Shown one piece after another: positions 1 to 63,224 of a stretch of DNA of 64,000 nucleotides. Origin of the DNA: Plumapathes pennacea (taxonomy: Eukaryota; Cnidaria; Anthozoa; Antipatharia; Myriopathidae); the NCBI GenBank assembly GCA_964036295.1, contig OZ038466.1, forward strand, positions 1,488,001 through 1,552,000, read 5' to 3'. Each line of letters starts with the position of its first letter. Within the stretch, counting starts at the first letter, position 1. The translations under genes were made by a program, and so were the position numbers. A model generated the notes under the pieces. The model was given only the letters and a program-made list of their open reading frames with translations, was not told where the DNA came from and did not search any database.

Positions 1-1484
1 TCATCATGTACATTGTCTGGCTAAAGAGAAATGGTAAGACCCTACTACAATCATATCTGATGTGTTAAAAAATGCATGTTAGTAGCTTCTGTAATATCAA
101 GAGAATATTTCGTTGGTAATATATAGTTGGTTTGTAAATTCACAATAACGCTAAAACCTGGCTTTGTTGTAACCGACATTTTCTTTTTCAATTTATAGCA
201 GAATGGAAACGACTAAAGAAGTAAGTACTTATCTTGGTTCACTTACGAAAAAAAAATGGAAAAAAAAATAGTATGACTAATACATAATCACATGCACAAG
301 CAACCTTGGCATGACCATCTCGTCGCCGCCAAGGTCATATCCCCCACCTACCCCTCCCCCCACCCATGTCACCCAAACTATATGGACCTTAAAGTGCCTA
401 TAAGCCTTCAGACGTTACGTTTTTATATGAAAGTAGGAAGTGATCTAAGCAACTTATATTCAAAGAAACTCCGTTCCGAAGCGTTCTTATACTTTTTTCA
501 CGCGGTTGAACTCAGAATTCCGAAATCTTGACCGAGCGACATGGGAGACTGGGTCTGTGACGTCAGAGAAGGCACTGGCATCGCTTTGGCGTCTCTTTAC
601 CTTAGTTGTTTTTTTCCTTTGGTTACGTTTTTCTCGACAACACATCTATGAGCATAATTCTCACCTCGCCAACTGCAAAATCTGTGTGAAAGTTTTGTTT
701 GACAAGAAACGAATCCCTCCTCTGACGTCATAACCCAGGCTCTCGATCGAAAAACTTTGCGCGGTCAGATTCAAAATGGCGGTCAAAATCGCATGTTTGC
801 CGGGCGGAAAAATATATAAAAACGCTTCGGAGCGGAGTTTCTTTGGCCATAAGTTGTTTAGATTACTTCCTACTTTCATATAAAAACGTAACGTCTGAAG
901 GCTTATAGGCACTTTAATTGCAATCAGCTGCCATATGGTATATCATCAAATTATTGTCTTTTCTTCTTTAGACCCCATGTGAATATAAAAGTGATGTCTG
1001 AGGTGTGTAAACGTGTATTTCTTTCAGTTATTGTTTCTGCACATAAGTGCGACGAGTGATTTATTTGACTTCAACAACACTTAAATATTACTGAACTGAC
1101 TCCATTTGATTCTTAGCATGTTGCATTCCATAATGGTTTCGATAATGAACTTACCTTTATCATCCTATTTTACATTTCTCTTCTTTGCTTATTAGAATCA
1201 AGTGGAATTAGAGGACATCGTTCACGAAGCTGGAAATTATGCCGATCTAACCAACAAAACTCTTTCTCGTGAGCGCTCGAGGCAACCAATTCCAGCGGCC
1301 GCCACTCAACCTCGCGTCTATGCGCAACTCGCCTCAGCAACTCGCAATTGGGAAGTGCAGAGAAGAACTCTGAACATAGAGAAAGTGATTGGAAAGGGCG
1401 CGTTCGGTCAGGTTGCTAAGGCGACGGCTGTCGACCTACCTGGGAGACCTAGACTGACTGTTGTCGCTGTTAAAATGTTAAAAG
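1..1484 (+). other. Gene A membrane exit, two micro-exons and juxtamembrane YxxL pair
   Basis: Exon 1-33 ends the membrane helix in phase 1. The 22-nt exon 199-220 runs phase 1 to 2, the 31-nt exon 972-1002 runs phase 2 to 0, and exon 1196-1484 opens in phase 0. Skipping the 31-nt exon puts a stop in frame, so it is needed. The juxtamembrane region has NYADL and VYAQL, two YxxL tyrosine motifs 23 residues apart (counted between the motifs). The 22-nt exon has the same position and phases as the 25-nt exon of gene C (19783-19807). For 199-220 an alternative acceptor three bases downstream is possible. The exon calls are mine; no transcript was seen. Confidence 0.7.
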
Positions 1485-4603: not shown

Positions 4604-4780
4604 TTCCACCCTCGAGAAGACACAATATACAGCAAAGTAATATTTAGTGATAATAACTCGTGAAACTCCGAAAAACTACAATACCTACTTGGAAAACAAT
4701 GTAGTAAAGCTACAGTTGTATCGTTTCTTTGCAACAAGAGTAAAGTCAGAGGCAATCTTCTTTAGTGTATTGCTGGTCCC

Positions 4781-10100: not shown

Positions 10101-13100
10101 ACTGAAGTTTATCTAGTCCAAGTTTGATGAACCAGCATGTGGAAAATGATGCATACTTTATCTGCATGGCAAATATTAAAGACAACAGCACTACTTTAGT
10201 GCTAATGTAACTGTCTGTGTCTTTTACTTTACCACTCATGTCTTTTCTCTTAATTTATTGAGGTTGTTGTCTAAGACTTTTAAAATTTACTCACGTTTAC
10301 TATACAAATATCCGGTCACATTTTTTTTACGTATATATATAAATACAGTGCAGAATTACAATATTGTGGATTGAATACATGCAGGTGAGAATTTGAATTC
10401 AAAGGGGGCAGGCCTACAATGTATGACTTGTGTGATACACCAGAAAATTGAAATGATTTATGCAAGGCATGCACAAAAATCCTGCAAGGAAATTTGCCAG
10501 GATCCTACAAGGAAATTTGCCAGGATCCTGCAAGAAAATTTGCCAGGATCTTGCAAGGAAATTTACAAGGATCCTGTAAGGATCCTGCAAGGATCCTGAC
10601 CCAGGATCCTTAAGGATCCTACCAGGAATCCTGCAGGATCCTTGCAAGGATTTTCACCAGGGTTGTCTTCATTATTCTTCAAATATTTCCTTTCGCAGCA
10701 AAATAATGGCATGGGGACTGTGAACCTTTTTGTTTCTTTTATGGAAATGCCTTTTTTCGACCAGTATAATCCTTCTTGGAAGTCCTCAGTAGTCATCACA
10801 ATGTTTTTGTGACTAAATATTAAATAAAACTGTATTTGGATCTAGCGACAGTTCTCCAGCGGGGGGTATCAAAATAATGATAACATTTGCTTGCCAGCGG
10901 ACATTATTCAGTCGCTTGTCACAATTGCACCAATCGCATGCTAGAGGAAATATTTGATGGATAATGAAGCTGTCTATTTTTCTCCTCCTGTTCTATCTAT
11001 GAATCTAATTGCTGCATAGTGAGCAAAGCAGCAGTTTATATTCTTGACATATGATATTAATTGTATATGCAGGAAAATTTGTGATTTACTTGACTGCACT
11101 CGACTTTGCAATATTAGACCAAACTGCCTCGCACGCTTTGTAACCAAAATGCTTTGTGGCATTTGACTTTATAAATCACATGTCCTGCTGGACAATTTTT
11201 TTTTCCACATTGGTGGCTGCACTACGACATTGTTGAGTAATCTTTGCTGTTTATCCTGTCCATATTACTTCGTAGTTTAGATTTTGGGTTTGTTTCGTCG
11301 GCTTCATTTCTGTGTACACAATTTACAGGATTACAAGTTGTTAGCTTATATCAGGGAGTTCATATGATCACTCAGTTTGGATTTATGGCTTAATTCCATG
11401 CAATTTATAGGGTGGATTACAAGCTGTTAATAGCTTTATCAGGGAGTTCATACGATCGCTCAGTTTGGATTTATGGTTTAATCCCATCCTCACACTGAGT
11501 TTTATTCCTTACTGGGTGTGTTTGTCTTTGGTTTGAGTTTGATTAATTTCCATACTTGTAAAAATGTTTACTCTTACTGTTGACTTTTTATGCAAATAGG
11601 ATCAATATTTTTTATTGCCATCACAATTTCCTCAGCTCAACATTTCTCTTTTTTCATCACACTTCAAGTACACACCACATTTATCACAATGACCAGCACT
11701 TAACAACCATAGCATCGGTCACATTGTTGATGTTAATTTTTGTATTTTTTGTGTGCTTGTTGTGTGTGTGTATACTGTACACCAAGACATTTCTTTGATT
11801 TTCTATTATATACTGTAGTTACCATTCTCAAAATCAGTGTCTGGTTAATGAAAAGTTGTAGAGACTAAATTATGGTTTGGCATCTGTAATGAAGGATGGA
11901 GGAGTGCAAAGAAAACCCTTACTGCGAAAAATGCAAATTACTTTTTGGCTTTTGACTGGTTGATGGTAAGACAAGCTGTATTCTGACTGTATTCAAGCTG
12001 TATACTCCCATCACCTTTTGTATGTTGAGTAGAAAGGGGCAATTTTAGTGGATCAAGATTTGGGAGGAATTTTAGCTCCTCGTGACAGGAAAGAACATTA
12101 TTTTTACACTTAAGTACAGTATTTGTGAATGCAAACTGTGAATAAAATCATAAAGAAACTAACCTGACATTATCACCCTTAGCCAAAGGGTACAGTACAG
12201 TTAGTATGAAGTGATTTGTGATTTCCTTTTTACTAGATGCAGCATTTACCTTTACCAAAACACCACCAAATCCTACTGTTGCTGTGCTGGATCACAACAG
12301 CTCCAGAGTGGCTCTGTCATGGGAGTATGCAGTGAGTGGTGGTGAACAGATCGGGCAAATGAGGATACAGAGACTCAAGAGCAATGGTGCTCCTGAATCA
12401 GTTGCCAGCAAGTTTAACCCAAGCTCATCCGGTATAATAGATAACAAGTTCAACAAGGATGGACACTTTGAGTTCAAGGACCCAGCCACCCTGGTGATAA
12501 ACAGTGTTACTGAAGCAGATGAGCTTGAATACAGATGTGTGGTACAGACATCTCTTAAACCTGATGGCTACATAAATGCTACAATTCTGAAAGCTTACAG
12601 TAAGTTTTATGACAACTTTCAACTATGTGCTGTACATTACTGTAGGTCAATAGGATATATTATTAGCTCGCGAATTCCACTTTGTGGGATTTGCGAGGTA
12701 TAGTAATCACTTTCCTTCCCTGCTTCCCTATTCCCTCTGTTGTCAACAATGGATTTCCAAATAAAGCAGTTGCGGTTTTCCAAATTTGGGCATGATGAAG
12801 GCGCGCAACAGGGTGTGTCGAACAACGCAGTTTAAAAGCAAGATGTTGTCGTAGTTGTTGCGACCATATTTTTGTTCGGAACGTGTTCTCATTTTGAAGT
12901 TTTGTCATGCGTTCGAAGTTTGTTTGGCCATTGATTCTGAGCTTGGTTGTGTTTCACTCTACTGTGTTTTGCGTTGTTATTGTGACCGTTTGGCGCGGTG
13001 CCATGAAGGTCAAACAATCAGTGGCACCGATGGCGTTATCGCAAACAAATCTGAAGCCGTTGGTTTAGTATCCGCCAAAATTTCTGTAGTGACAGTAAAT

Positions 13101-16100
13101 ACGGCTTAGAAGATACTAGGCCGGAAAGATATTGAATCTCGGCCAAAAATATCCATTTCCGGTGAATGTTTACAAGTTCATACAGTATGCAAGTTATCAG
13201 GTGTTTCAATTCTTGGTTTGCATGTCACGTCATAAAAAGCCATCTCAAAAGTAACGTATCCTATAAGTCTAATACACTGATATGTTCAGGACTATCATGC
13301 CTTAAGACTTAAAGCAAAATTCTGAGTCGATACAAAATATCTATCGGGAGCTATGGACGTTTGAATACCGTGACAACAAAGCCGTGTACACGCGCGCGGC
13401 CGACTAAAATCGGTCCTTCACGCAACATTTTAAAGTTAGAACTGCGAAAGATGTGAAGTAACTAAACATCAAGCTGAGTCACAGATCAACTTCATTTTGT
13501 GTTCCGAGTTCGACTAACATGGCGGCCGCATACAAACTCTTATCAAATCTCCAAAAAAACAAATTGCTCCTGCTTCGCCAAAATGAAGCCTAGACAATCC
13601 AAAATTGGCATCTGGACTATTTTAGGTCTTTTTAGTTCTATAGAGTCAAAAAGGTACAATCTGTTATTTTGAAGGGTGCTGCGATCGCGTGACCCGTGAA
13701 AACCGCGTCGATAAATCTTTTCTCTCAATTATTATATAACACTTTTTTAAGCCCGCGTTCACCACGAAGTGGTGAATTGAGCCAGTTCTATTAAATAGCT
13801 ACTTCCGCAAAATGAAGTCCTTTTACAAATTCGCGAGCTTACAGCTGCCTTGCTGCTTTGATTATATATATAATCTGGCACCTATGTACTTTACTACATT
13901 TAAAACCTCCAGATAAACATTTTTGTCAGAATGAGATAAGTATCAGGATTAGGCAAGCCTGGTCTGGTAACGGAGTTTGATCAATATATTGTTATGCCCT
14001 GTTCTGTACAAACTGTATTATTCTAAAGGATTTAGTGTGTCTTTTGGTCCCAGTATATGCTTAGATCAAGAATGGACCCCTGCAGTGTGCTCAGGCCTCA
14101 CAGCATTTATAAATACAATTTAGCAGCACTTAAAGTTACAAAATTTTAGCTCCTTGACAGTCATTCTCAGTTGGCTGGTGGCCATGTTTGACCTTTTTAG
14201 CTGTGACATCATACAGTAGAGGGGGCCTGGGAAAAAGCTTCACACACGAACATACATAATTAACTATAATGTAAATTTAATCTTAAACATTTTATGTACA
14301 ACACAGTTCACTGTTATTTGTTTTAGTTCCTGCAAATATCACAGTAATGCCCGAGGACCAGGCTGTGTTTGAAAAGGAAAACTTCACATTTTACTGTGAT
14401 GCATCAGGAAAACCAGATCCAGTTATAACATGGTTTAATAATGGAAACGTTGTGGGGAGTGGTTCATATTATACCAACGTAGCAAATCAAAGTGGAACAT
14501 ATGAGTGCAAAGCAGACAATGGTGTAGGACAACCTGCTACCGCATCTGCGACTCTCACAGTGAAGGTTTATGGTATGTAGAGTACCTGTCAATTCCATGT
14601 AAATTAATGCCCTGTCCCACAATGCTCGAGTAAAATTGGGATACCATACTTACATTGTACCTTCTCTCATTGCTGCCGTTTTCCCTGCCGTGTCTGGAAC
14701 ATAACTTGAACTGTCCGCTTTGAGAATGTGTAAATACAGAGTTTGAATGAGCTAGAGTTTTAACAGGATTTCGTTTTTAAAAAGAGCTGTCTGCTAACGA
14801 GAGTGTCCGCCCAGAGAGCTTCGACTGTATGCTAAATTTTCTGCATCACACGCGGAGTCGGACTTCTTTTTGTCACTCATTCCACCTGTCGTGGTTCCTT
14901 GAACTGTATCAACAATGAATGGACTTCCAAATAGGCAATTCCATTCCAATTCGGGCATTTTCAAATTAACGCGTGATCAAGTGGTTTTCTTATCGTCTTG
15001 ACTATCAATCAGAACTCATTTCAGAACTACGTGAACGACGGACTACCTTTGCAAAATGCAGGTCGATCTAGTGCTGCTGTAGGCCCTCCACTCCAATGCA
15101 CGATGACTCCATTGCACGAAATCCAATGCAAGGCGGGGGGCACAGGACGATCAGACAAAACGCATGGGATGCCCATTGTCCATTTTGTAGAGATTGTGAT
15201 ACATAGTGCAGTGTTTTTCATACCTGCGCATGTTCCCATCTCGCTCTCGTATAGAATAATTGAAAAGAACAGTCACGAGTATTTCTACTTTGTCTGTTTT
15301 GGCACAATTATACTGATACAGTTCATTTAGATTTACATTATGTTTGCTTTTTGCCGGTATCCACCCACTTAAGACCACTTAAGCATATTTTCTAAAAGGT
15401 ATGCCTTTTATGTCATTCTTTCTTAGTTTCACCAGTCACTACAGCAACATACTGCCGAAAAACGAAATCTTCATTGCGCCTTTTATGACCTTTTGCCTTG
15501 TTTCGATTTTAGTTTTGGCAAATCTCACAATGAAGCCATACAACAAAACTCTGAAGGTGAAGGAGAACACTCCCTTGTACTTGAGCTGCAATGCATCTGC
15601 AAACCCTGAACCAACATGGACTTGGTTTAAGGACGATAAAGAAATTAAAAAAGAGACTAAAATAGGTCCAAGTGTGCTGAAGATTGATGCTGTGGAAACC
15701 AGTGATGCTGGTCGGTACACGTGCAGGGCCAAGAATCGCAAAGGAGAGAAAAGTGTCAATAAGGACATCATAGTTATTGGTAAGATGCTATAATACTGGT
15801 GTGTAAATTTAAATCTAAAATGAATGATTTCCTTTTACATCATCACCTCTTGAAGCCATGTATTGTTTTTGTACGTTGTTTTGCACGCAATAACAGTTTT
15901 TGGTGATAAGCTGTGCCAAAACAAGTGCTCAGATAAATACCGGTTTCCTAAACAAGTATGAAAGCTACGATTTTGTGATCCACAATAAAATATGTTAGAA
16001 GCATGCATTGTGAAATGGAAACCGTCTTCTGTCCACTATTTGGACCGGGTGTTGTCGGTAGCAAGTGATAGTGCCCTCTGGCTAACTGATGCCCTCGCCT

Positions 16101-19100
16101 TCGGAACCCCCCAGAAACCGACGAAACGAGCCTGGTGACATTATTCTGGCTCTATGCAATACGTTCCCGATTAGCTGGTTCTAGTCGACACACCAATTTT
16201 GAAACAGTCATTATAACCAAAAGATTAAAGATAGAATTAAGGAGACTAAACGTGTCTGAGTTTTCCCCAGTTTTTGTGCATATCTGTACAACAATATCCC
16301 TTGTCAGCGTTTTGCGCGGAACGTTGCGTGACAAATGAAAACCGTTAAAGAGTTTTCAAAAGCACAGAGTTGCCAAAAGGACAAACATACTATCACAGGC
16401 ATGCTGTAGTAATTTTAGTGAAAGATTACATTGCAAACGATTGCGCACTGCAATCTTAAGGTCTTTATTCTGTTGTTACTTATTTTTAGCCACGGTGATG
16501 ACCCTTTGTAGGAATTCCATTGTAACTGATGATACGAGAAAGTGGAGGAAAGCGGTGGGAGGGAGAAGATCACTATGAAAATCCCCAGTGCTGTCGTGGT
16601 CTGCCCTCGCTCATATAAGTGTTTTAACACTTATATGAAAATACCGTTACACTTAAAACACTTATTAAAATACGGTTTATGCTGTTGTATCTTCAGAAAA
16701 ATCAGGAAAAACGTTTGCAGTTGGAGTATTGTTTAAAATAACAAGTGAACAGTGGAACAAAATGTATGAAGACCATCAAAGTCAAGAGTTTAAGACCCTA
16801 AGCGAAAAGATTGTTACAGAGGTACTGTGCATACTTTTGAATTCTTAAAGTGGTTATTTGTTTCTTAGTTTATTTGAAAGATGTCGAATGGAAACTTTTT
16901 TGACAACTTTTGCTTTTTGATATTTGTTTTGTTTGTCTGTTTTTGTTTGTGTTTTTTTGGTTTGGTTTGGTTTGGTTTTTGTTTTGTTTTGTTTTGTTTT
17001 TTGTTTTTGTTTTGTTTTGTTTTGTTTTGTCTGTCTTTTTCTTTTTCGGAAACGGCGGCAATCTCCCGCGGTTTCCTTTGGTCAAACAAATGGATATTCT
17101 GAAATTGTTTTACTGCAGCATAGGCTTTTGCTGTTAATTGTTCTTTCAACTACGATAAACACGTTTTAAATTTCAACCACAAAGGATATTAGGCATACTG
17201 GTGGAGTACAGGATATGTTGATATTTTAAGTGTGCGTGATGAATCATGTTTTTAGTAGATACTTGTTTTACGTAATTATGTAACAAGTCTTGGACGTATA
17301 CGTAGCAAACAATTGATCGAGGTCTCAATTATTCAGCTGAAAGCAAAGTATTAATACTATTTTTTTTTTACGAAAAGTATACTTCGTACAGATCAAGTGT
17401 TTGTGTCACTGGTAGTACATGACCATGAAACTGAGTTGTGAGTGTTGGCCCCGCGATGCTTTCGAAAGCTGTGCTTTAAGTATATTTATATGTAATGTAA
17501 TGTAGCTAACTGCCTAATTTTCTTTCAGCTGTGGATTGTATACAGAGAAAAATTCGTGTCTGTGGTCAATATTGAAATTTTTAAGTTGAGGTATGTACAG
17601 TGCCCTGCGACTTTTTGCTTCATCAATCAAATTAGGAATTACAATGATCTGGAATGGTCTACATACTCAATCGCCCGCACTGCATGATGAACATACGTAC
17701 GTACTTTCTCAACCTATTTTACCCCATGCGGGACACTATGGTTTTGTAAACAGAAATTGCTTAAACGTACGTGGAACCATTGAAAGCAGATATAATTTAT
17801 TTGTATGCACTTCACTGACAACATACTAGATGTCAGACATTGCGTCTTACGGACATTTTTTTCGTAAAAGTAATATCCTTTTTTAGAGCTGCGTACGCGT
17901 TTCATTCGAACATCTGTGCACGCTTTGTATGTACCCATGTACAGTGTATACTTTTGCTTTACAGTGAAGGAAGTGTGGTGGCCCACGTCAGAATCACTTT
18001 CGATGAAAACGTTCTAGAAGATGATGTTCTCTCTGTATTGAAAAATGTCAAGGACGGAAAGCTGGGCGCGTTCACATTTGACAGAAGTTCAGTGAAATCG
18101 ATTTCACCCGTTGACCCGGGTAAGTACTCTGAAGATCCACATAAAGGGGCAAAAGTTATTCATTCCATATTATCCCATAACTGCTGCACTACAAATCACC
18201 CGAGGCATGCAACGCCACGCACCTTCTAATTACTTGTTCTAGAGTAAAAAAAAATCCCCGAAGGACGCCTATTTATTTCACCAGGTTTGATTGCAATTAC
18301 TGTATCCACATCCAAACCTGTTGGAACTCCTACAGAGCGAGGAGATATCTGCGATTATCGTATTTCTAGTACCACGCACATTTAAGTTTAAAAAGTTTCT
18401 GTATGGCAACGAAGGAAAGGTGTTATACCTGCATTATTATTATTATAAGTATCATTGTGTACTTCTGTATACAGTGATTGGACAAAAATGTCGAATGTGT
18501 CATAATGGAGTTGCTCGTAACATCTTTCTGCATGCAGTATCTTCTGCATGTTCATGATAGGCACTACTAAGTGTAGTCAGTACGACTATGAATCCACACA
18601 TATATATGTACAGGTATAGTTATTTATCCAGCTATATGTGTAGTTATGTAGTTACACATAGTTATATGATTATTTAGTTTTATAGTTATTAACTGGACTT
18701 TTCTGACATGGAATATATCTCCTGTGTAGCTTCATGTATTCCAAATCCTTGTGAACATGATGGTGAATGTACTCAAGGCAAATGTTCGTGCAAATTCCCA
18801 TGGAAAGGGGAGACGTGCGGTAAGTGTTTTATATGGAACTTGCTTTTTAGAACATCTTAATAAATTCAGGTAAATTCAGTTTAATTTGTTTTATATGTTA
18901 TCACGTACTTTACGCTTGTATATATATGCACACGCGTGTATTAATGCCGTGCGAGAGGCACAAAATCTTATGATGTTCCAACATTTTGTTCTACAATTGT
19001 AGCACGCGGGGATTATTTTTAAGCTAATGTATTGCCACCTCCAGATTTCTTCACCCCTCTTTATGATCTTCAGTTATATGATACACAACGTTTGCGCTGC

Positions 19101-19880
19101 AGCAACCAGCTAATGGGTTAGTCAGGATATCGTCCAAATAATTGTATCTGTGTATTGTTGGGGGATCAGTTTTCGAAAGTTCACTTTGTGCTAAAAAGTA
19201 AATAGCTAAGCCATATTTTGCAGCTTGTTACTCAACTGTTTCCTGTATGTTTCAGATAATCCTGTGATCATAATTGTGCTGGCAGTGGTAATTCCACTCG
19301 TAGTCCTTGGTCTCGTTTTTTTGTTGTTATTCTGGCGCAACAAGAAACGAAAATGCCGAAAGGACACGCGGGGTAAGTTGTGGTAGTGACAATGGAGGAT
19401 AGTTTAAATGTGCGTTGTGTTGTTCGTTGGTTATTTCTTCCGAGCTTAAGTTGATTTATTTTACCAAGGTACAAAGCAATCTAGTAAGTTCTACAGACAC
19501 AGTAAACAAGACTAAACGGTTCACGCCTAATTAAGCTGCTTGTTAGCCCTTGTGTGCAAATATAATAAATTATGTGAGTAGGCACGTGGGAATATTTTAA
19601 TAGTTGGATAATGGAAATATCTTTTTATTAGACCATCTATGACTGATCTTGAAGTTCTGGCCCGCTCCCCTTTGTTACTTAATGGCCTTTTGAATATGAC
19701 TTAGGCCGTCAAGGCACCATTACTATTCCTTTTCTGTTTCTCTCTCTTTGATTATTTCACTTGAACGCAATTTATGTTTCAGTTAACACCGATGGGGACT
19801 CAGTAGTGTGAGTAGTTATTTAACATTTCCTGTTGTTGTTGTTGTTGTCGTTGTCGTTGTCATTGTCGTTGTCGTTGTCG

Positions 19881-19927: not shown

Positions 19928-20678
19928 GCTTTGAAACGTCTTATGATGGTTGTGAACATGCTCCACAATTGGCCAACAGATCGTACGCTAAAGGAGGCCC
20001 CCCCCACCCTGAGCAGGAGGGTGAATATGCTGTAGCGCAGAAGTCAAAAGGGGCCAGTGCGAGGCCAGACGACCAGTATGAGAACGTGGGACACCGAGGT
20101 CGCGTCAAGAATGAACAACCTCCTGCTTATACTGCAGTACAGAAATCTGGACGCAACAACGAAGCCTCAGATCAGTACGCTATGGTGGACAAGAGAAACA
20201 AGAAAAAGGTTTGTATTAGGAGTTGAAAGGTCTGAAATATGTCCTAAACGCGTACTAAGTTTGCTAGTACAGTCAGGGATATTCAACGAGTGTTACTCGA
20301 TCAAAAACTGTCTTCCTTATTGTGACTTTGTCTTTTATTCAGTTATGTAACTTGTCCCGTTTTTGTTGAAGTTCCCATATGTTCATCATTTTGCACAAAG
20401 AAAAGCAACTGTCTTCAGTTAAAGTGTGAAATGTTACCCGCGTTCCGACAACAAATGTCGTATAAGTTAAACAACGATTGCTCTTACTATTACTGACGTG
20501 GCCAGTATACATGTAAAAACCTGTATCCGTCTCTCTACAGAAACCCGCAGAAAAGGAGCTTAACTACGCCGAAGTGTCTGGGGCACCACTCCTAGGCGGC
20601 CTACCCCCAATGAAGCCTCGCCGCCAAGAGACCACTTACGCCGACATAGACTTTAGGAAACCCGACGACATGCTGTAA
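7159..20678 (+). CDS. Gene C: Ig-SEA-EGF transmembrane receptor with ITIM/ITSM-like tail
   Basis: Twelve exons: 7159-7240, 12237-12599, 14327-14572, 15513-15779, 16697-16821, 17529-17590, 17965-18119, 18730-18819, 19256-19372, 19783-19807, 19980-20208, 20541-20678. They total 1899 nt (632 codons plus stop) with all phases agreeing. Order: signal peptide (1-27, hydrophobic core VGFLVCLSLFSPILL); V-like domain (about 28-148) lacking the first Ig cysteine (VALSWEY) but keeping YRC; two canonical Ig domains (about 149-319, FYCD/YEC and LSCN/YTC); SEA (about 320-433); EGF-like (about 434-463); membrane helix (about 467-488); basic stop-transfer RNKKRKCRK; tail to 632. Tail tyrosines: Y544 (YENV), Y561 (YTAV), Y577 (YAMV), Y596 (LNYAEV, ITIM consensus), Y620 (TTYADI, ITSM consensus). 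It is probably a cell-surface recognition receptor recruiting SH2 proteins; the ligand is unknown. The start is the only ATG giving a signal peptide that splices in phase. Confidence 0.88.
8019..8142. repeat. Hairpin MITE in gene C intron 1
   Basis: The left arm starts CAATAAACTACTTTTGGC and continues to about 8062. The reverse complement occupies about 8097-8142 with few mismatches. A single arm of the same family (AAACAATAAACTACTTTTGG) occurs at 57575-57597 in gene E. Confidence 0.8.
8150..8340 (+). repeat. Direct-repeat flank, copy 1
   Basis: Contains AAAATAATGGCATGGAGACT and later TCACAATGTTTT..TGACTAAAATA and GTGTTTGGAT. The same series appears in the same orientation at about 10690-10850. 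With the GGATCC arrays this suggests two copies of one composite element in gene C intron 1. Confidence 0.6.
8412..8545. repeat. GGATCC-rich palindromic array, copy 1
   Basis: Dense, irregular repeats of AGGATCCTGC / AGGATCCTTG, a self-complementary unit, so both strands read alike. The edge CCCTGGTGAAAATCCTTGC recurs in inverted form at the end of the second array (near 10660). Confidence 0.8.
10477..10660. repeat. GGATCC-rich palindromic array, copy 2
   Basis: The first half alternates AAGGAAATTTGCCAGGATCC units. The second half is plain AAGGATCCTGC repeats, ending GGATTTTCACCAGGG. No spacer/repeat regularity as in CRISPR. Confidence 0.8.
10690..10850 (+). repeat. Direct-repeat flank, copy 2
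   Basis: Matches 8150-8340 in order and orientation (AAAATAATGGCATGGGGACT, TCACAATGTTTTTGTGACTA, CTGTATTTGGAT), with small insertions. Confidence 0.6.
11331..11486 (+). repeat. Two tandem copies of an ~70-bp unit
   Basis: ATTACAAGTTGTTA...TATCAGGGAGTTCATATGAT...CAGTTTGGATTTATGG at 11331-11399 is repeated with a few changes at 11416-11486. It lies in gene C intron 1; function unknown. The rest of the intron (10861-12236) shows nothing recognisable. Confidence 0.75.
12664..13841. repeat. Possible TIR element in gene C intron 2
   Basis: AGCTCGCGAATT near 12664 is matched by AATTCGCGAGCT near 13830-13841, a 12-base inverted pair about 1.2 kb apart. The inside is more GC-rich than the surrounding intron and contains CACCACGAAGTGGTG-like palindromes. 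No target duplication or transposase was seen, so the boundary call is weak. Confidence 0.3.
14327..15779 (+). other. Gene C second and third Ig domains
   Basis: Exon 14327-14572 (FYCDASGKPDPVITWF ... YECKADNGVG) and exon 15513-15779 (LSCNASANPEPTWTWF ... YTCRAKNRKG) are canonical I-set/C2-like Ig domains with both cysteines and the tryptophan. Both are phase 1-1. The intervening intron (14573-15512) shows no recognisable feature. Confidence 0.88.
16697..18119 (+). other. Gene C SEA domain (three exons)
   Basis: Exons 16697-16821, 17529-17590, 17965-18119 with phases 1-0, 0-2, 2-1. The sequence runs FAVGVLFKITSEQW ... KLSEGSVVAHVRITF ... DVLSVLKN. The GSVVA stretch fits the SEA autoproteolysis motif (cleavage between G and S). 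Gene D has the same exon structure (122, 62, 179 nt, the middle exon identical in length). SEA domains sit just outside the membrane in mucins and some receptors. The short intron-side palindrome at 16612-16637 has no assigned role. Confidence 0.85.
16912..17042 (+). repeat. TTTTG-rich low-complexity tract
   Basis: Irregular TTTTG/TTTGG repeats in the intron between the first two SEA exons. The long open frames across it on both strands are composition artefacts. Confidence 0.85.
18730..19372 (+). other. Gene C EGF-like domain and membrane helix
   Basis: Exon 18730-18819 has six cysteines in EGF spacing (C-x4-C-x5-C-x4-C-x-C-x8-C). Exon 19256-19372 encodes the helix VIIIVLAVVIPLVVLGLVFL followed by RNKKRKCRKDTR, a type I orientation. 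Both exons are phase 1-1. The same two-exon order occurs in gene D. Confidence 0.88.
19783..20678 (+). other. Gene C cytoplasmic tail exons with tyrosine motifs
   Basis: Exons 19783-19807 (25 nt, phase 1-2), 19980-20208 and 20541-20678. Five YxxV/I motifs are spaced 17, 16, 19 and 24 residues apart. The last two fit ITIM (LxYxxV) and ITSM (TxYxxI). YENV also fits a Grb2 SH2 site (YxN). A proline-rich stretch, GGLPPMKPRR, lies between the last two tyrosines. Confidence 0.85.
19831..19928 (+). repeat. (GTT)n/(GTC)n microsatellite
   Basis: About 98 bases of GTT repeats with interspersed GTC, immediately after the donor of the 25-nt exon and about 50 bases before the next exon. Length changes here could affect splicing of the tail. 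Confidence 0.95.
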
Positions 20679-40613: not shown

Positions 40614-43600
40614 TTACCCGAGCAGGTCCTCCACGTTCTCATACAACTTCTTGTCGTATTTTTTCATGTCAATGAGAAACTAAAGTAGAAGAAAATCCAC
40701 ACAGGGATAATCTCAACTAAGAATAAAACCTGAATAAAAAGAAATTAAGTTAAAACTACTAGTACTAGTTAATTATATATAATAACTAAACCTATTGTTT
40801 CAGTTTATTCGGTAAAATAATTATTGCAAAAGTGTGAAAACAAACTTATAATTTAACAGCAGCTTTTTCAAATTTATTTTCAAAATGGAATATACCTGGC
40901 GCACTTCAAACAAAGTTGTATGGTAATAGGAAAGAATAAGAGAGAGCTATATGACGTAAAGCTGTGCTGAAAAAACGTAGGATACATTTTAAGCCTTACG
41001 ATTGTTTAAATATGTCTTTCGCATCAAAGGATTTGAACCGATGCTGGCTGATCAGGAGAAACTGCAGTCTAGATTGTTCAGTGAGCCACAGCAAGGATCA
41101 TAATAAGTTAAAGTGCTCAAACTAACTTTATACTGGCGAACAAGGTTGATATTCCCCGCCGCATATCATTTATCACTTTACGTCAGATTACGAACCTTGT
41201 GTCTTTTCTCCAGGCCTCTCATCCTGTTTTTGAGAGATTCAAAACTCGGCCGTCGATCGTCGCTCTCCCTCCAGCACTCCAACATGATCACATACCTGCA
41301 ATTTACAGATATTATTTTTCACAGTGAAGTTTTTAAAATACCTGAGTATAACAAAATATTTGTATGCTATTCGGTCACGTGTCACGATTCCACCAATCAC
41401 GCGCAGGAGGAAATATTTGATGGGTCATAACTGTGTATATCAAAATATATGTATGTATGTTGTAGATGTGTGTGCATGGTACTGAGTTTGCTACTGCACT
41501 AACTTACTTTTGAATAGGAATTGTATCTTTTTGCCGTGTTATAGTATATTAGGTGTATAGTGCTTTCGATAAATATATGTTTGACCTTCATTATATGAAT
41601 AGTCAAAGAACTTTTAAAAGTTCCTAAACACTGCACACCATTGATATGGAGGATTGATATCTTTGTATATCTCTTGACCAACTTTGCGTAACATATATCT
41701 CACTGACATCCACACGGATCCGTTGTCCTGATTTTGTAATACTGCATGATTATATAGTCAGATTTTTTAAAATTAAATCAGTGAAAAGTATGTAACAGCT
41801 GTGATTTGACTCACAATTCGTCGTCCAGATGTGCTGGTTTGGGCATTCTGTAGCCCTGCTGTAACAACTCGGCAAGTTTTCGTCGGTCGATCTTCGGATA
41901 AGGACACCCGCCTGTCCAAGGGAAGAAAAAAAAAAATGCCATCAAGATTTTCACTAGAGACGAGGTTCTTATGCTTATGAAAATCACGCTTTAGAAAAAA
42001 ATATTCACCGAGAGGTTATTTACCCAAGAGTAGCAAGAGGCAATTATTAATAAAGCATGCAATTGGTCATTGGTAATAAGGAAAAATAAAACAGAAAATT
42101 AGAACATAATTATTGATGAAATGAAAATTGATCTTTAATGGTGAAATCAGTAATTTAACCGTCCTTTCAAATTTCGAGTCTCGGAAACCGTAATACAAAA
42201 TCGAATTTCATATGTGAAGCGAAAGAGTCTCCACTTACCAACTGTGAATATCTCAAAGAGAACAACGCCATAGCTCCAGCTGAAACGATTATAGAAAGTT
42301 TCAATATTTTTTCACCCAACCACGTTCAAGGTCTATTTTTCAACATTGTGATGCTATTCATCCTGTGTATAACATGCCATCTGGGTCGCGACTCTTATCT
42401 AAAATTGAATAACACTGCAGTTACGGCAGGGGCACATGCCGTTGTGCGTCCTACTGGTTATCACCCCTAAACTCTCAAGACTTGTATAATTTGTATACTT
42501 ACACGTCACTTTTTGTCGAATACGTTCCATATAGCAAAGCTTCGTAGGCCGTCCATTTAACAGGCAGTCGCCCCTGAGTTTTAACATCATAAAACAGTCA
42601 AACACTGAGACCGTAATCTAGAAAATTGGTTGAATAGTTTATAGCTTTCCGTCGATAACTCGTTACACCTTTTCATATCAAATTGACTAGTTTTCTCATC
42701 ACTTTGTTCCTTTTTATCTGCGGGATAAGTCAAATTGTTATAAACTTGCCTTAGTTTTCTTCTGATAAATGTCTTCCTGGTGTACATCTCTTGCCATACC
42801 GAAGTCCGTCACTTTGCAGGTCTCTTGCTCACCAACCAACACATTTCTAGCAGCGAGGTCTCGGTGTACGATCTCGTAAAAAGAAACTACGTCGTTCGTT
42901 TTACCTTGCTTGAAGACAGGAAACTCATCCCATCAGCCACCTGCCAAGCAAACTTCATCAGCTGCTGTGACGTCAGGTTCGTCTTGGGTTTAACATCCGG
43001 GTCCTTGTAGTAAGTGTCGTTTAGTCCTCGGCTCTTCCTCAGGTATCCCAACAGGTCTCCATACGGGACATACTCGATGATCATCATAAGAGTTTCAGTG
43101 AAAACCACGGGATGCATTGTGACCACACAAAATGATTCCTGCAATTTTCGCTTTTTCTGCAGAACCAGTTTTAAAAATATTTCAATAATTTCTTACCCGA
43201 TGTAGTGACGCATCCCAACAACTTGATGACGTGCGGATGAGTTGGAAGCGTCTTCATTATCTCCAGTTCTGACAACAAGTCTTTTCTGTCGGAAGCAGGG
43301 GCGTTTTCTACGAAAGAAAGGCATGTTAAAGAATTCCTAAAATTATGCTCTGGGGAAAATGGAATTATTTTCTCAAGAAGGTACGATGTAGCCCTATAAG
43401 TGACAATTATGCATAAAATGAATATCGTACTCATTAATAACGTACGACTACTGTTTCTGAGTTTGGTCAATTCGCATTTGTTCCAGCTGTCATCTATCTA
43501 AAAAATCAGAAATAGCGGAGAAATTTTACTATTTTTTGTCAATTTTCTAAAATAATCATGCATAGAACGATGAATAGGTACTAACTTCAATTGTTTGTTT

Positions 43601-43960
43601 GTTTTTTAATCATAGACTGAAACAAAAGACTCAAAAGAGTTGTAAGCACAAGAAACGGAAATTTTAAAACCAGCTTCTATTAGCCTATAGTAGCAAAGAT
43701 GATATAAGTCACTTACCTTTTAACATTTTAACAGCCACAGTTTTTTTACCTCGGCTTCCTCTCAGGTTAACAACTGTTGCCTTGGCAACCTGACCAAATG
43801 TTCCCTTTCCAGTGACTTTTTCGACCGTCAGACTTTCCTTCGGCACTTCCCAAGATCGAGTTTGAGGGGAGAGACTCCTGTACACATTGACCTGAGGCTG
43901 AATTTCTGTTGCGGGCGAGCGTCTTGTCTCATCAAGAGACGCGTAGTCGCGCCTTGAGTT
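40614..43960 (-). pseudogene. Gene F: orphan receptor tyrosine kinase copy, probably broken
   Basis: Exons by homology to gene A: 43717-43960, 43197-43307, 42905-43095, 42750-42872, 42503-42573, 42239-42279, 41815-41911, 41196-41295, 40614-40679. The middle seven exons have exactly the gene A lengths (111, 191, 123, 71, 41, 97, 100). The kinase motifs are intact ([54 protein letters not shown] stop). Faults: the acceptor of the 191-nt exon is TG instead of AG (43096-43097). The next intron (42873-42904) is only 32 nt and has an in-frame TAG if read through. No membrane helix or ectodomain was found upstream, where transposable elements sit. The exon 42750-42872 ends in a GC donor (GCAAGT), which can be functional. 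It could still make a truncated protein, but a decaying duplicate is more likely. Confidence 0.75.
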
Positions 43961-45237: not shown

Positions 45238-45416
45238 GTCAGTCTGTCGGGGCCGGGAGGTGAAAGAGCCTGGGAACGAGATTGGACTGCCCACTGTTGT
45301 ACTAGTTCCAGGTCCCCTCGGTCATTTTTTCCAAACAAAAAGTAAATGAATCGTCGCCAAGAAACTTCTGCTGGCTGGCACGCCGAAAAGCCGCCACGGC
45401 GCTTCTGGCGTTACAT

Positions 45417-47003: not shown

Positions 47004-47497
47004 ATGCTGTACGGAAAAGTTTTGCTCTCGCTTGTATTAACGGGTTTATATTATCTTCAGATAGGTAAGTTTCATTTACCTTATAGATGAGTTCCTATTT
47101 TGTAAAGGCCATGGAAACATCTGGCACATAACTGGCAAATGCATTTCCTGCTATTATTGTCTTGCAGAAAGCGTGCCCAAATTTTCTCAAAAGCCTAGTG
47201 ACCCAACCAAGGCTGTAGAAGGGGAAAATGCTACTATGAAATGGGTTTATGATCTTGATGGTGCTGCGTTCCTCATATCGAAATGGTATTATGTTGTAAA
47301 CAATGTTCGGAATGAACTCGCCAAACAGGTTTTGAGCAATGACCCCGAAGTGTCTGATGCACGTTTCAAGATTGCCGAGAAAGCTACTTTTATCATTATT
47401 AATGTGTCAAGATCGGACCAAGGGAGATACGAGTGTGAGGTGACTGCTCAATCAGGACCTTCGCTTGTACCCAGTTCAGTGATGCTTAATGTCTTAT
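47004..47497 (+). other. Gene E signal peptide and V-like domain
   Basis: ATG at 47004, with no in-frame ATG just upstream; 61-nt exon ending in phase 1. After an intron of only 103 nt, exon 47168-47497 encodes a 110-residue domain with W but no B-strand cysteine. Confidence 0.82.
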
Positions 47498-56400: not shown

Positions 56401-58169
56401 TATTGGAACATTTGTGTTTTAGGTACTGCATGTAGTTATTCTATTGATGCATTAATTTCTAGATCCAGCAACAGCTGATGTGTTGTCAAGTCCTGACCAT
56501 GTTGTGGAGGGTCATGATGTGACTCTGCAGTGTAAAGTTACTGGATCACCACCCCTATCCATCAAGTGGACCAAAGTTAATGATTCCAACGTGCTGTCCA
56601 ACTCATCAAAACTTACTCTGTACAATGTCATGCGACCTGGTACTCCTGGTGAAGTCCTCCAGTATCAGTGCACAGCAAAGAATGCTTACGGAGACCCTGC
56701 ATCTGATGTGGCTACTATCCAGGTTTACTGTGAGTATCATGGGATAGTGAGGTTTCTATTTACATTATCATTCGTTTTCCTGAACGTGAATGGGCTGTAT
56801 CCTAGGGAAACTGCAATTTGATTGGATCCCTTGGCAGTCAGTTGTTTGTGCGGAAATACTGACGTCATCTTATGTTAAAAACACGGTAATTTTGCTTGGT
56901 GGAATGCCTAGTGCAGTAATTTGTGGGCATTTTATTTTTTAAGTGTACATGAGCCCTAAAAGGCTGCTGTTTGAATTGGATATCTGAAGTGCGTAGACAT
57001 GAACTGATTTATTCAACCTCATCGTCGTCTCGTTATTGAGTTCCAAAGTGCTCCAAACTGACACGTCTTTCTAACTTGGCCATTCGAGATGATGTACTGT
57101 TGTAAGGGACTGACGCTAGTTGGATATTATCGCTAGGAACCTTATAACGGTCTGTGATTCAAGAGTAAAAATTCCGTACTGATAGCGGCAAATGCCCAGA
57201 ATCCGGGCATCGCTTCCGAATGGTTGTCGCTCCAGCCTAATAATATTAGCATACAGTACCGCCCGCTGGTAAGGAGTGCACGACCCGCGGGTCGCCCACA
57301 GAGCAATATATTTGCGTGCGGGTTTTTATCGGTGACCATGCGTATCGAAACCCGCGAGTTTGTCGCCGTAGACTTTGGTGCCGGAGCCAACAGAGCCAAT
57401 GAAAAGAGATGTTGATTTATGGTGTGACCTTTCTTAGCCAATCAGGAAGGAGTGTTCTGCACGAGGTTAACACATGCACTCACTAGCATCTGTCATCGAG
57501 TTCTTTTTCTCTCGTTGGCACTTAGTGAAAGCTACAACTAGTTTAAGAAATATACTAATATTTAAATACTATATAAACAATAAACTACTTTTGGCAACGG
57601 TTATCCTGCACTTGACCGTTTTGCCTGCACATGGCCGTGTTGTACTATGCCCAGCATTCATTCGGAAAGTGGCATGATTCTATAGCACAATGGACATAGA
57701 TGCACAGCTCAACGAACATCTTTGCGTACCAGTTTACAAGGAAGCCATTCCGTAACATCGCCGATATCTGACGGTGTTAAACTTACAAGTAAAATTGCAG
57801 TAATGGCATTTTTTTCGTTGTTTCTGCAAAAAATATTATATAAAATAAGAAACAAAAACAAAAAAAGCAAAACAAAAGAGAAACAAAAACAGTCACAGTG
57901 TCACAGTACTGGCGTAACGATAGTTCGTGAAGATTTTTTTAAATTTGCTGAATGATGTACGTCAACAAAGAAGACTGAATCTGGACCAGAAATAAGGTTC
58001 ACACAAAGTACATGCGTGGTTAAAAAATCCGCTTAGATCACCAGAATTCGTGCCTGACTATACCTTGATTCAAACCGGAAACTTGCTTTTAAGGGAAAGA
58101 GAATCGATAACCTAGACAAAACTTACAACATCACGATCACGCCAGGTGAGAACTTCCTGCCTGAGAGGC

Positions 58170-58220
<51 letters not shown>

Positions 58221-61200: not shown

Positions 61201-63224
61201 ATTGTGGAAGGGAAAGACGTGGTCCTAGTTTGTACAGCAGAGGGTAACCCTACTCCATACGTGACTTGGTTTTTTCCAAACGGCACACGTCTGAAGAACG
61301 GAACTACTAGTGTTAACTTTACCCTGCCCAGTGTATCACGTGACGACAACATAACCTACCAGTGCAAAGCAACAAATATGCTTGGAAACGATTCAGTGCC
61401 ATTCAACCTTAATGTTTTGTGTAAGTCGCTCATTTGCATTGATGAGGTAATTGTCACTTGCCCAATACAGTACAGTGCAACTAACCAATTCAATTTCTCA
61501 AAGCTTACGATATTATTGAAGTATTGTTTGGGAATTTTGGAAGGATAAGGTGCAATGGCCGTTTAATCATCCTGTACAAAACGTGGCTTCCCAAGCTGAT
61601 AATGCGACGAAACAAGTCGATGTATTTGCTACGCTTGTAAACATTTTTTAAGAACACAGTTTGTCCTTCTTCCGTAAGTTATAACTTCAATAATAACATG
61701 CATACAATAATTTCTGCATTCTGATTGGCTAAGCGCGCGTCAATTTATCCCAAACAGTGCAAAAATGTGTAATTAACAGTGCAGAAATGTGAAATTAAGA
61801 GTGCAGAAATTTGAAATTAAAAATTGCCGATAGCTGGCGCGCGTATTTGCGACAAAGCCAAACAAAGCAGGAAACGATTTCATTCCTCACGACGATTCCG
61901 ATTCTGTTTTGAGAAAACGAAGTTCTTGAAACACTTGTGAATTGTAACGAAATTGAAAAAAGATAGCTCGACGAAAATTATTGTATGCATGTTATTAACA
62001 AGTAATCACATGATTTCTCGTGCAATTTTGGAATAAATAAGCACTCGTAAATTTTTCAAAGACCACAAATTGCACTCGCGCGGCGCAAGTGCAATTTTGT
62101 GGTCTTTGAAAAATTTACTCGTGCTAATTTATTCCAAATTGCACTCGAAATTATGCGATTACCTATACTAATGAAGCGACCTTGGAGCTCCCTTCCTCGC
62201 TAAGACATTCTCTGCTCCGTTATTAGCTTTGATTGTCGTTCTTTTCTGGAGTAAACCTAATTACCACAATTTTTTGTTGTTAATATCAGTTCAACCATTT
62301 TGAAGTTATACGTCGCGGCAGTTGTTTCGCGTTACAGTTTAGCGATCAGTAAAACCGTCCAGAAATACACACATTTTGTTTCACTTTAGCCGATATATTT
62401 CCGGGTCCAGACAAAGTGTATCACACACGTTTAGTTCCATAATTTTGACCAAATGACGATACTCGCAGTCTTTTGGTCTAACTGAAAACTGGTTTTGAGT
62501 CCCCCTTCTTCCCCTATCAATATTAAATCTTGAGCTTAGGTGAGTTCCGGCAGGGTTTTGAGAGGAAAGAGGTATTGTGCAACAATTTTGATCGAGATTG
62601 TCAATCTCAGACTAAAATAAAGATTGATCAAGAATCACCCCACCTTCTTCCCTCTCCTCCCGAAAATAGAAGACGACTCGAAATTGCAGTATTGTACATT
62701 TTAATCGTAACATCAATGAATCAAAAGCGCGTGCTTGGGGGGTGGGGGGGGGGGGGGGGGGGGGGTACTTAAGTGATAATATCTGGAGCACCTTGTTTAC
62801 TGAGATTTCATACGCTGTTTCGTTAGCTTTCAGGGATATTCTTAGATATTGGATGCAGTGAAAATTGCGTCATTGTTGAGAAACGGGTTTTTCCTATATG
62901 AAATTTACCATTTATGTATAAAGTTGTGAAAATAATAGCTAACTTACCTACACCTTTTTACAGATAAACCCAAAATTTTGTCTGTGATGCCTAACGACAC
63001 GGAGGTCCATGAGCATGAGTCTGTACATTTTGTAGCAGACGTGGAAGGGAACCCTGAACCCTACGTTGCATGGATTTCTCCAAATGGGTCTGTCTTAAGC
63101 AACAAAACAGTAGAATTCAACTATAACAAAACCGACATAACAAGGGGTGAACAAGGACGTTATCAGTGCCGTGTGACAAACATAGTGGGTATTGATCAAA
63201 GGAATTTTACGGTCACCATTCTAT
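47004..63224 (+). CDS. Gene E: multi-Ig receptor, N-terminal part (continues past right edge)
   Basis: Exons: 47004-47064, 47168-47497, 55794-56045, 56463-56729, 61163-61420, 62964-63224, all phase 1 at junctions and in frame. Signal peptide (YGKVLLSLVLTGLYYLQ); V-like domain without the first cysteine (ATMKWVYDLDG ... YECEVT); canonical Ig (FWCTAVGNPAPQYKL ... YICEANN); canonical Ig (LQCKVTGSPPLSIKW ... YQCTAKN); type A Ig (LVCTAEGNPTPYVTW ... YQCKATN); type B Ig (FVADVEGNPEPYVAW ... YQCRVTN). About 476 residues are visible. The order follows gene D except that D's odd-cysteine domain is missing. More Ig domains, SEA, EGF and a membrane helix are expected beyond 64000; whether it ends in a kinase cannot be told. 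The introns are very large (8.3 kb and 4.4 kb) and repeat-filled. Confidence 0.85.
47498..50450. other. Gene E intron 2, left part
   Basis: AT-rich, with no recognised element or exon. Open frames here are short and unlike proteins. Confidence 0.5.
50527..52320. repeat. Fold-back composite repeat in gene E intron 2
   Basis: 50895-51060 is the inverse of about 51495-51680 (shared CCCACAAGGTGTTATGAAGT, TGGGAGATTTTCAAATCACA). 50520-50880 matches 34990-35760 in gene D. 51750-52050 matches 2610-2920 in gene A, and 52190-52310 is the inverse of 50750-50870. Overall it is a large imperfect palindrome. Confidence 0.65.
52560..55280. repeat. Interspersed element split by a later insertion
   Basis: 52570-52835 and 55027-55280 match the reverse complement of the two ends of 2575-3435. 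Between them sits the TIR element 52838-55024. About 370 bases of the gene A copy have no counterpart here. Confidence 0.6.
52838..55024. mobile_element. 2.19-kb TIR DNA element with subterminal repeats
   Basis: Ends CCCGTACGAAAATGTCT and its exact reverse complement, extending imperfectly to about 30 bases, with TA on both sides (52836-52837, 55025-55026). Inside each end are many copies of GAGCCTGACA / GAGCCTAACA (or the inverse TGTCAGGCTC). The interior has two open stretches, around 53611-53883 and 54494-54770, that I do not recognise as a transposase. It is a probably non-autonomous element. Confidence 0.8.
55794..56729 (+). other. Gene E second and third Ig domains
   Basis: Exons 55794-56045 and 56463-56729, phase 1-1, each with both Ig cysteines. 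They correspond to gene D exons 32922-33185 and 32548-32817. Confidence 0.87.
56962..57340 (+). repeat. Interspersed repeat, copy 1
   Basis: Contains TTGGATATCTGAAGTGCGTA and CTTTCTAACTTGGCC. The same series recurs in the same orientation at about 59050-59400. Confidence 0.6.
58171..58213 (+). repeat. Poly-T run of 43
   Basis: Homopolymer in gene E intron 4. A matching poly-A run lies at 58661-58686. Confidence 0.95.
59050..59400 (+). repeat. Interspersed repeat, copy 2
   Basis: Matches 56962-57340 (TTGGATATCTGAAATGCGTA, CTTTCTAACTTGGCC). It is followed at once by a run of 22 G (59403-59424). Confidence 0.6.
60137..60535. repeat. TTAA MITE, truncated inverted copy
   Basis: Starts after TTAA (60133-60136) with the same AGTGCCTATAAGCC terminus and is closely similar to the reverse complement of 393-913. 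It stops near GGAATTCTG, so the second inverted arm is missing. Confidence 0.85.
62002..62162. repeat. Long hairpin in gene E intron
   Basis: Arms of about 75-80 bases (62002-62081 and 62086-62162) pair with few mismatches around a GC-rich centre. GTAATC at the left faces GATTAC at the right, and TTTTTCAAAGACCACAAAT is repeated in inverse. Confidence 0.8.
62737..62765 (+). repeat. Poly-G run, possible solo end of the poly-G/poly-C element
   Basis: Six G, one T, then 22 G, followed by TACTTAAG. It resembles the GGGGTACTC end at 4781-4815. Confidence 0.6.

Follow-up and report, generated by a model that had tools for sequence, protein, structure and literature searches.

Similar ectodomains on tyrosine kinase and ITIM/ITSM-like ends: a probable paired-receptor cluster in the coral Plumapathes pennacea

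Vertebrate paired receptors commonly activate via a charged transmembrane (TM) residue and an adaptor with an immunoreceptor tyrosine-based activation motif (ITAM), and the activating members of the CEACAM1-related and CD300 receptors are not known to have a kinase domain. In both groups similar ectodomains are joined to activating ends or to inhibitory ones, which in CEACAM1 contain immunoreceptor tyrosine-based inhibition and switch motifs (ITIM/ITSM) (PMC2832619, PMC5112662, PMC12447643). The inhibitory and the activating receptor gene of the primate pair SIGLEC11/SIGLEC16 lie head-to-head (~9 kb), and their V-set exons are kept alike by gene conversion (PMC5701461). Hydractinia Alr proteins belong to a cnidarian complex of genes for Ig receptors, and ITIM/hemITAM motifs are reported from candidate genes (PMC12065747, PMC11999971), while Botryllus fester and the fester co-receptor form adjacent pairs in the allorecognition locus, with V and C2 Ig domains and ITIM or hemITAM tails (PMC12065747). 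Judged from the passages of these papers, both are the nearest invertebrate cases. Passages of a review on anthozoan immunity name only the Hydractinia Alr genes as allorecognition loci (PMC7563517). The window described here, a stretch of 64,000 nucleotides of the coral Plumapathes pennacea (contig C5, 1488001-1552000), is part of a receptor cluster on C5 (0.8-1.8 Mb) that is bigger than the initial annotation of this DNA could see. Its genes join V, Ig, SEA and partly EGF domains to a tyrosine kinase or to a tail with tyrosine motifs, and the system resembles the activating/inhibitory receptor pairs of vertebrates, built here on a kinase.

The genome examined comprises 290 Mb in 24 contigs; around the window, the stretch w-90000 to w154000 was analysed, with window coordinates (w) defined by C5 = 1488000 + w. 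A search for the GFP family as a marker of Anthozoa, run exon by exon, had no match in this genome and none in the control genomes either, and so carries little weight. Gene models of this single genome were derived from splice scores and paralogue comparison; K2 was described by separate exons, without a splice-chained model. DNA identities were counted over aligned bases, gaps ignored. For ITIM and ITSM the familiar formulas [ILVS]xYxx[ILV] and TxYxx[VI] were used. A kinase marker exon (~83-150 of A's kinase query; matches of at least 57 % identity counted, those of at most 53 % excluded) was present in at least 32 copies in the genome: at least 17 on C5 at 0.81-1.75 Mb, that of gene F included, at least 8 elsewhere on C5, at least 5 on C2 and at least 2 on C1. 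The V exon search at E<=0.01 yielded 15 matches, seven of them with at least 64 % identity and every one of these in K3, K2, A or C; the others, all on C5, had 49 % (one) or 29-35 % (seven) identity.

The gene models showed mosaic genes, two kinds of tails, head-to-head units and matched V exons. From the mosaic genes and the matched V exons it follows that signalling ends of different kinds have ectodomains in common, or ectodomains that are kept alike. Near-identical outer parts joined to unlike cytoplasmic parts, a trait of paired receptors, are thus present, and the cluster is probably one of paired receptors, with the same or kept-alike V and Ig domains on kinase or ITIM+ITSM ends; the structural part of this reading is held with higher confidence. 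The proposal of the initial annotation, one ectodomain stock on different signalling ends with kinase receptors mixed among ITIM-like ones, was thereby upheld, via C/A, C/K1-K2, E/K5-K6-K8 and the head-to-head units.

In the western part, five plus-strand genes stand in tandem, K1, K3, K2, A and C, the last one after four kinase receptors. TM and kinase exons were observed in A, K1, K2 and K3, and signal-peptide exons were predicted for some of them; the V-Ig1-V-Ig1-Ig2-SEA exons of A sit left of the window. Gene C, spanning w12237-20678, has different nearest kinase relatives from exon to exon. For V and Ig1 the closest gene is A, with 98.3 % DNA identity to A's second V exon (354 aligned bases) and 93.1 % for Ig1; the V identity of 94 % on the amino acid level is lower than that of the DNA because of two small shifts in frame. 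The following exons are close to K1/K2 (Ig2 91 %, SEA1 88-90 %, SEA3 89-90 %, EGF 94-96 %), whereas the values to A are 64 % for Ig2, 69 % for SEA1 and 66 % for SEA3; the short SEA2 exon was left out of this comparison. SEA3, EGF and TM exons near those of C are present in K1 and K2. K3 and A contain a related SEA, and an EGF exon was not found in them; further matches to C's SEA3, EGF and TM exons were weak, mostly EGF-like, and on C3, C10 and C11.

In line with the switch of identities along C, the gene trees disagree. The V tree joined C with A's second V exon (support 100/99) and rejected the V exons of A and K3 as one clade (p-AU, approximately unbiased test, 0.0003). The Ig2+SEA tree joined A with K3 (100/100) and rejected C+A (p-AU 2.8e-12), a strong conflict with the V tree that is beyond chance. 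In the kinase tree A grouped with K3 (82/89), K1 with K2 (94/97) and K5 with F (100/100). Synonymous divergence (dS) of the V-Ig1 cassette was low between A and K2 (0.136 for the first V exons, 0.079 between the first Ig1 of A and that of K2) and much higher for two of their kinase exons (0.98 and 0.51), indicating a young cassette and old kinase exons. In A, stem and kinase of the K3 type are thus combined with two V-Ig1 cassettes like those of C and K2; any direction of copying is an inference.

The ends of these genes are of two kinds. A, annotated before as a kinase gene, carries a complete kinase domain (PF07714, 299.5 bits), with HRDLAARN and DFG; in a PDB search with this kinase, 59 of the 60 best matches listed were RET or FGFR, and the top match was labelled EGFR. 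In C, where an ITIM/ITSM-like tail had been annotated, the phase-1 TM exon is followed by a tail exon T1 ending in phase 0 and a tail exon T2 with the stop codon, and by no kinase. The motifs are in order YENV, YTAV, YAMV, LNYAEV (ITIM) and TTYADI (ITSM), five of the type YxxV/I, which supports that annotation; as many YxxL/I/V motifs in the 117-residue tail were equalled by none of 10000 shuffles. Gene E, reaching beyond the window, ends with TYAQV, AYAAV, LFYADL (ITIM) and TEYADI (ITSM), a number of motifs equalled by 40 of 10000 shuffles, and ITIM and ITSM occurred jointly in 10 of 10000 shuffles of either tail. Both motifs are thus present on the kinase-less tails of C and E, with ITIM before ITSM in the last tail exon of either type and with phases alike (T1 entered from phase 1, phase 0 between T1 and T2). 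Four E-type tails were found in the genome, all in the C5 cluster (E and C5 1680k, 1728k, 1783k); ELFYADLSEF is kept in all four, TEYADI in three, and the fourth has TEYAYI. That A and C share the exon pattern behind the membrane stood in part: T2 of C begins in phase 0, as the juxtamembrane exon does in A, K1, K2 and K3, but a short exon that should follow TM and precede the juxtamembrane exon in the kinase genes was looked for and not found. As an annotation artefact, the tails would be separate genes, or kinase-less genes would splice to distant kinase exons. In gene models built from splice scores, the weak acceptor of C's T1 (score -2.8) speaks for this, but a plus-strand kinase exon was not found in a search from C's EGF exon to w154000, C and E share the tail phase pattern, and the E-type tails recur, those at 1680k and 1783k on the same strand 0.9-1.1 kb behind TM and ~3 kb behind SEA. 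We regard an artefact as very improbable.

The eastern part is organized in units of a kinase gene (-) and a tail gene (+) back to back, with V exons 2.3-3.1 kb apart. In all four units with both V exons, the two are inverted repeats of each other (94.4 % over 359 bp, 90.1 % over 464 bp, 88.6 % over 475 bp and 92.7 % over 370 bp); V identities on the amino acid level within the units K5/G7, K6/T1680, K7/T1728 and K8/T1783 are 95, 90, 79 and 93 %. E-type tails lie right of the V pairs of K6/T1680, K7/T1728 and K8/T1783 and were assigned to the neighbouring plus-strand V exons because of order and strand. Intergenic DNA is shared at 80-95 % among K5/G7, K6/T1680 and K8/T1783, so the matching in these three may reflect recent duplication; it is not shared with K7/T1728, which is the stronger case for V matching. 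The V exons of this unit (dS 0.11) share 39-44 % of their amino acids with the V exons of the remaining units and 30-34 % with E, D and two fragments of D. The kinase exon of K7 and the tail of T1728, by contrast, remain close to the other units. In the K5/G7 unit, the V domain is shared (95 %) and Ig1, Ig2 and SEA3 are not (41, 30, 41 %); the inverted similarity is almost limited to the V exon. The likely way for the ectodomains to stay matched would be conversion of one inverted V exon by the other.

In the paired-receptor reading, the end with the RET/FGFR-like tyrosine kinase would activate, and the tail end, when its tyrosines are phosphorylated, perhaps through the kinase partner, would recruit an SH2 phosphatase. 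The members of a pair would be co-expressed, bind the same ligand and send opposite signals; with less confidence, the ligand may be a polymorphic self or neighbour marker. A candidate SHP-like phosphatase gene is indicated on C9 by SH2-like, SH2-like and PTP-like exons in this order on one strand (14486261, 14488345, 14491474).

Several observations weigh against this reading. Of the five kinase/tail positions, no more than three (K6, K7, K8) have retained kinase exons together with a matching V and an open tail, the kinase of K7 and of K8 being represented by part of its exons; at the fifth position, F/E, F was found without an ectodomain. For the V exon of K6, G7 (94 %), K8 (93 %) and K5 (92 %) are all closer than T1680 (90 %), the partner within the unit. 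Of the tail, G7 retains no more than a brief and weak similarity to the beginning of T1 (138562-138587 to 75742-75767), and since this remnant directly joins the flank behind T2 (138586-138799 to 76763-76959), the tail motifs of G7 appear to have been deleted. With C's tail, no other match was obtained in the genome at E<=0.001, and its T1 and T2 were not significantly similar to E's tail among the open reading frames of the region (E 6 and 2.6). The likeness of C and E was reached by 2 of 5000 shuffles for T2 and by 171 of 5000 for T1; the T1 comparison does not discriminate, because the juxtamembrane stretch of K2 does equally well on the T1 profile (53/5000), and that of A gave a moderate result on T2 (77/5000). 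That the tails of C and E go back to one ancestor is no more than suggested at this level of similarity, and a derivation of the tails from the juxtamembrane exon is conceivable. Finally, K2's juxtamembrane stretch itself has three YxxL/V motifs (88/10000 shuffles), of which two conform to the ITIM formula (97/10000), and no significant excess of nonsynonymous over synonymous substitution (dN>dS) was found in the V exons, with dN/dS 1.05 for K7-T1728 (dN>dS in 577 of 1000 bootstraps).

The motifs on the kinase side (HYAEL, SYETV, AYASL, and NYADL and VYAQL in A, whose two YxxL/V were equalled by 255 of 10000 shuffles) are of the same style as those of the tails and bear on the main rival explanation, a co-receptor role. 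There, the tail genes would be kinase-less docking partners, joined to the kinase receptors via V, phosphorylated by these and bound by SH2 adaptors, with signals in the same direction. Matched V exons and the head-to-head layout suit a heterodimer no less than they suit antagonists, two of K2's motifs fit the ITIM formula, and C has among its five motifs one strict ITIM and one ITSM; yet the order of ITIM and ITSM in the last tail exon of both types is the layout of vertebrate inhibitory receptors. We consider a co-receptor role rather unlikely.

Selection estimates bear on a second rival, neutral concerted evolution, by which duplicates would swap exons by gene conversion and ectodomains would have no joint function. 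Mean dN/dS was 0.48 for V (six exons of three units), 0.16 for the V exons of K5-G7, 0.56 for D with two fragments, 0.54 for Ig1, 0.43 for Ig2, 0.47 for T1, 0.41 for T2 and 0.03 for one kinase exon. In the western part pairwise values, based on few sites, were 0.24-0.72 for V, 0.38-1.37 for Ig1, 0.74-1.10 for Ig2 among C, K1 and K2, and 0.04-0.26 for two kinase exons. The ectodomain is under loose and the kinase under tight constraint; positive selection on V was looked for and not found, there being no significant dN>dS. This result suits neutral exchange, as do the tail-less D and G7 and the ectodomain-less F, signs of birth and death of genes, and the inverted repeats that favour conversion. 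Against it stand the constraint on the tails (0.41-0.47) and above all on the kinase exon (0.03), the conservation of ELFYADL in four and of TEYADI in three E-type tails, and the near confinement of the inverted similarity of K5/G7 to the V exon; we consider neutral exchange unlikely, somewhat more so than a co-receptor role.

Compared with the described systems, the paired-receptor cluster on C5 has its nearest analogue in SIGLEC11/SIGLEC16, as far as passages of the source describe it: a head-to-head pair with V exons alike. Siglec-16 activates via an ITAM adaptor, whereas the presumed activating partner on C5 has its own tyrosine kinase and occurs in several units. CEACAM1 and CD300 receptors likewise have similar ectodomains on opposed ends, the activating candidate on C5 differing by its kinase. 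In the passages on Hydractinia Alr (PMC12065747, PMC11999971) members with SEA, EGF or kinase are not mentioned, and the likeness is one of description. Botryllus fester differs as a tunicate gene with a sushi domain, and PMC12065747 does not use the term 'tyrosine kinase'. None of SIGLEC11/16, fester and Alr is described there with a kinase as partner. A search of titles and abstract openings found no cnidarian study of receptor pairs with kinase and ITIM members; subscription papers were mostly outside this search, which makes it weak evidence of absence. With RET and FGFR the C5 receptors share the kinase domain and catalytic motifs. FGFR has three Ig loops and RET a cadherin-like ectodomain; neither ectodomain was found in the C5 genes, which have V-Ig-SEA-(EGF) instead and share it with kinase-less sister genes. 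The TM cores of K1, K2, A, K3 and K5, as read, contain no charged residue, so the ITAM-adaptor form was not encountered in these five. If the reading is true, paired-receptor logic can be built without ITAMs, with the same V on a kinase and on an ITIM/ITSM tail, and a coral gains concrete candidate recognition genes; the head-to-head units would make co-expression, shared binding and matching of V alleles directly measurable. It is conceivable, though tentative, that the cluster is a self/non-self complex of an early-branching animal: bipolar kinase and ITIM/ITSM units with V exons matched by conversion across a shared control region of 2.3-3.1 kb, so that each new V would receive an activating and an inhibitory reading.

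The V domain has an Ig fold by solved-structure and Pfam searches. As the initial annotation had it, the domain is poor in Cys: in 10 of 10 aligned V exons Trp takes the inferred place of the B-strand Cys, and the F-strand Cys alone remains. All ten match V-set and I-set at E<=0.01, while C's V exon alone scored 17.3 bits against V-set, below the Pfam cut-off of 26. Pfam cut-offs were passed by kinase and SEA in A, by SEA in C and by I-set in A, C, D and E. The SEA domain of these receptors, with G-S-V/I at the usual cleavage place, suggests a cut stalk that is held non-covalently.

For genes C and D, the initial annotation had stressed a shared structure. Both have the layout V-like, Ig, SEA, EGF and TM, and in both the exons for V, Ig, EGF and TM are bordered in phase 1; phases inside SEA are not comparable, as the model of D is without the first SEA exons. 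A close kinship was ruled out: identities on the amino acid level are 29 % for V and 48-50 % for EGF, and neither SEA3 exon retrieves the other at E<=0.01, placing the two genes far apart, an outcome that the initial annotation had named as refuting its proposal for this pair. SEA in D was assigned by similarity to the SEA3 exons of other genes in the cluster; Pfam gave nothing for its SEA3 at E<=0.1, and a SEA1 piece scored 14.4 bits (cut-off 26.4). A tail exon of D was not found at the locus; that its tail is silent, as proposed before, is at most possible. The chained exon 31077-30655 of D is probably too long on its 5' side. Gene F, annotated as a broken kinase gene, is indeed a K5/K6-type fragment with seven open kinase exons; TM or ectodomain were looked for and not found. 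Its DNA identity is 83-91 % to K5, with a match ending at w43965, and 79-95 % to K6, where the match reaches the end of the analysed stretch on the K6 side. A D-type V exon directly follows the kinase on its 3' side in three units, those of F (D's own V, w38176-38508, -), K5 (w90349-90681, -) and K8 (C5:1736647-1737015, -); that of D leads into further Ig exons, the copy of the K5 unit does not, and the copy of the K8 unit was examined as a single exon.

The view of E as a short relative of D had to be given up, as E continues past the window to w76746 with an ITIM/ITSM tail and its Ig1 and Ig2 are closer to K5, K6 and K8. Amino acid identities of Ig1 and Ig2 are 75-85 % and 81-91 % to the K5, K6 and K8 units, 75-81 % and 81-91 % to the kinase genes of these units (lowest to K5), and 48 % and 43 % to D; dS to K5 is 0.19 and 0.30. 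E's V has 31-41 % amino acid identity to the V exons of other units and is without a matching partner. A SEA exon was not found in E. The V-Ig1 intron of C contains a 1.2 kb insert (12660-13863) with 88.6 % identity to w69105-70304 in an intron of E.

Table 1 Features of the receptor cluster (window coordinates unless C5 is given; aa, amino acid identity)
Gene	Feature	Position	Strand	Basis or remark
K1	kinase exons	w-55.9k to -52.1k	+	cluster analysis
K3	V; kinase	V w-45.8k, kinase to w-31.3k	+	cluster analysis
K2	V; kinase	V w-25.6k, kinase to w-14.7k	+	exons
A	V; kinase	V w-11.3k, kinase to w4.3k	+	splice-chained model
A	TM exon	w-115..33 (3' end in window 1..33)	+	splice-chained model
A	juxtamembrane (NYADL, VYAQL) and kinase domain start	1196..1484	+	acceptor at 1196, matching place in K1, K2, K3
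A	remaining kinase exons	1736-1876 (3' border uncertain), 2025-2215, 2321-2443, 3490-3560, 3765-3805, 3980-4076, 4243-4342	+	
C	V-like exon	12237..12599	+	nearest A's second V exon
C	Ig1 exon	14327..14572	+	nearest A
C	Ig2 exon	15513..15779	+	nearest K1/K2
C	SEA, three exons	16697-16821, 17529-17590, 17965-18119	+	GSVV; PF01390 44.3 bits, cut-off 26.4
C	EGF exon	18730..18819	+	nearest K1/K2
C	TM exon	19256..19372	+	66-68 % aa to K2/K1
C	tail exon T1 (YENV, YTAV, YAMV)	19994..20208	+	weak acceptor, start uncertain
C	tail exon T2 (LNYAEV, TTYADI, stop)	20541..20678	+	
D	V	38516-38178	-	
D	ten exons following V	33185 to 27356	-	nine matched by Ig profile
D	SEA3, EGF, TM	26410-26237, 25855-25757, 25581-25474	-	
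F	seven matched kinase exons	41202..43852	-	K5/K6-type fragment, all open
E	candidate signal-peptide exon	47004..47064	+	prediction only
E	V-like exon	47168..47497	+	
E	Ig1, Ig2	55794-56045, 56463-56729	+	75 % and 81 % aa to K5; Ig2 91 % to K6, K8
E	Ig3, Ig4	61163-61420, 62964-63224	+	
E	EGF, TM, T1, T2 (beyond window)	w72879-72971, w73501-73614, w75675-76081, w76489-76746	+	
K5/G7	V exons	C5 1601.6k/1605.0k	-/+	kinase exon 1583k (-)
K6/T1680	V exons	C5 1652.0k/1655.2k	-/+	kinase exon 1641k (-)
K7/T1728	V exons	C5 1706.0k/1708.5k	-/+	kinase exon 1698k (-)
K8/T1783	V exons	C5 1754.8k/1757.8k	-/+	kinase exon 1741k (-)

Further repeated structures were observed in and around the cluster. Left of K1, at C5 1400k-1422k (w-88000 to w-66000), are four repeated plus-strand blocks, each with one V-like and 4-5 Ig exons. 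Between F and E, an open reading frame of 371 residues (45306-46418) resembles a reverse transcriptase, presumably of the non-LTR type (without long terminal repeats). A repeat at 389-917 and 60133-60535 is 99 % identical in opposite orientation, with a third copy at w-66098 to -65570, and points to a recent mobile element. A second cluster on C5, at 9.8-10.4 Mb, has V-like and Ig exons adjoining related kinase exons. Eight near-equal Ig exons are spread over 0.8 Mb on both strands of C4 (16.99-17.77 Mb), and C3 at 14.43-15.81 Mb contains an unrelated tandem expansion with 20 plus-strand kinase-domain matches of similar scores in open frames of 262-308 residues.

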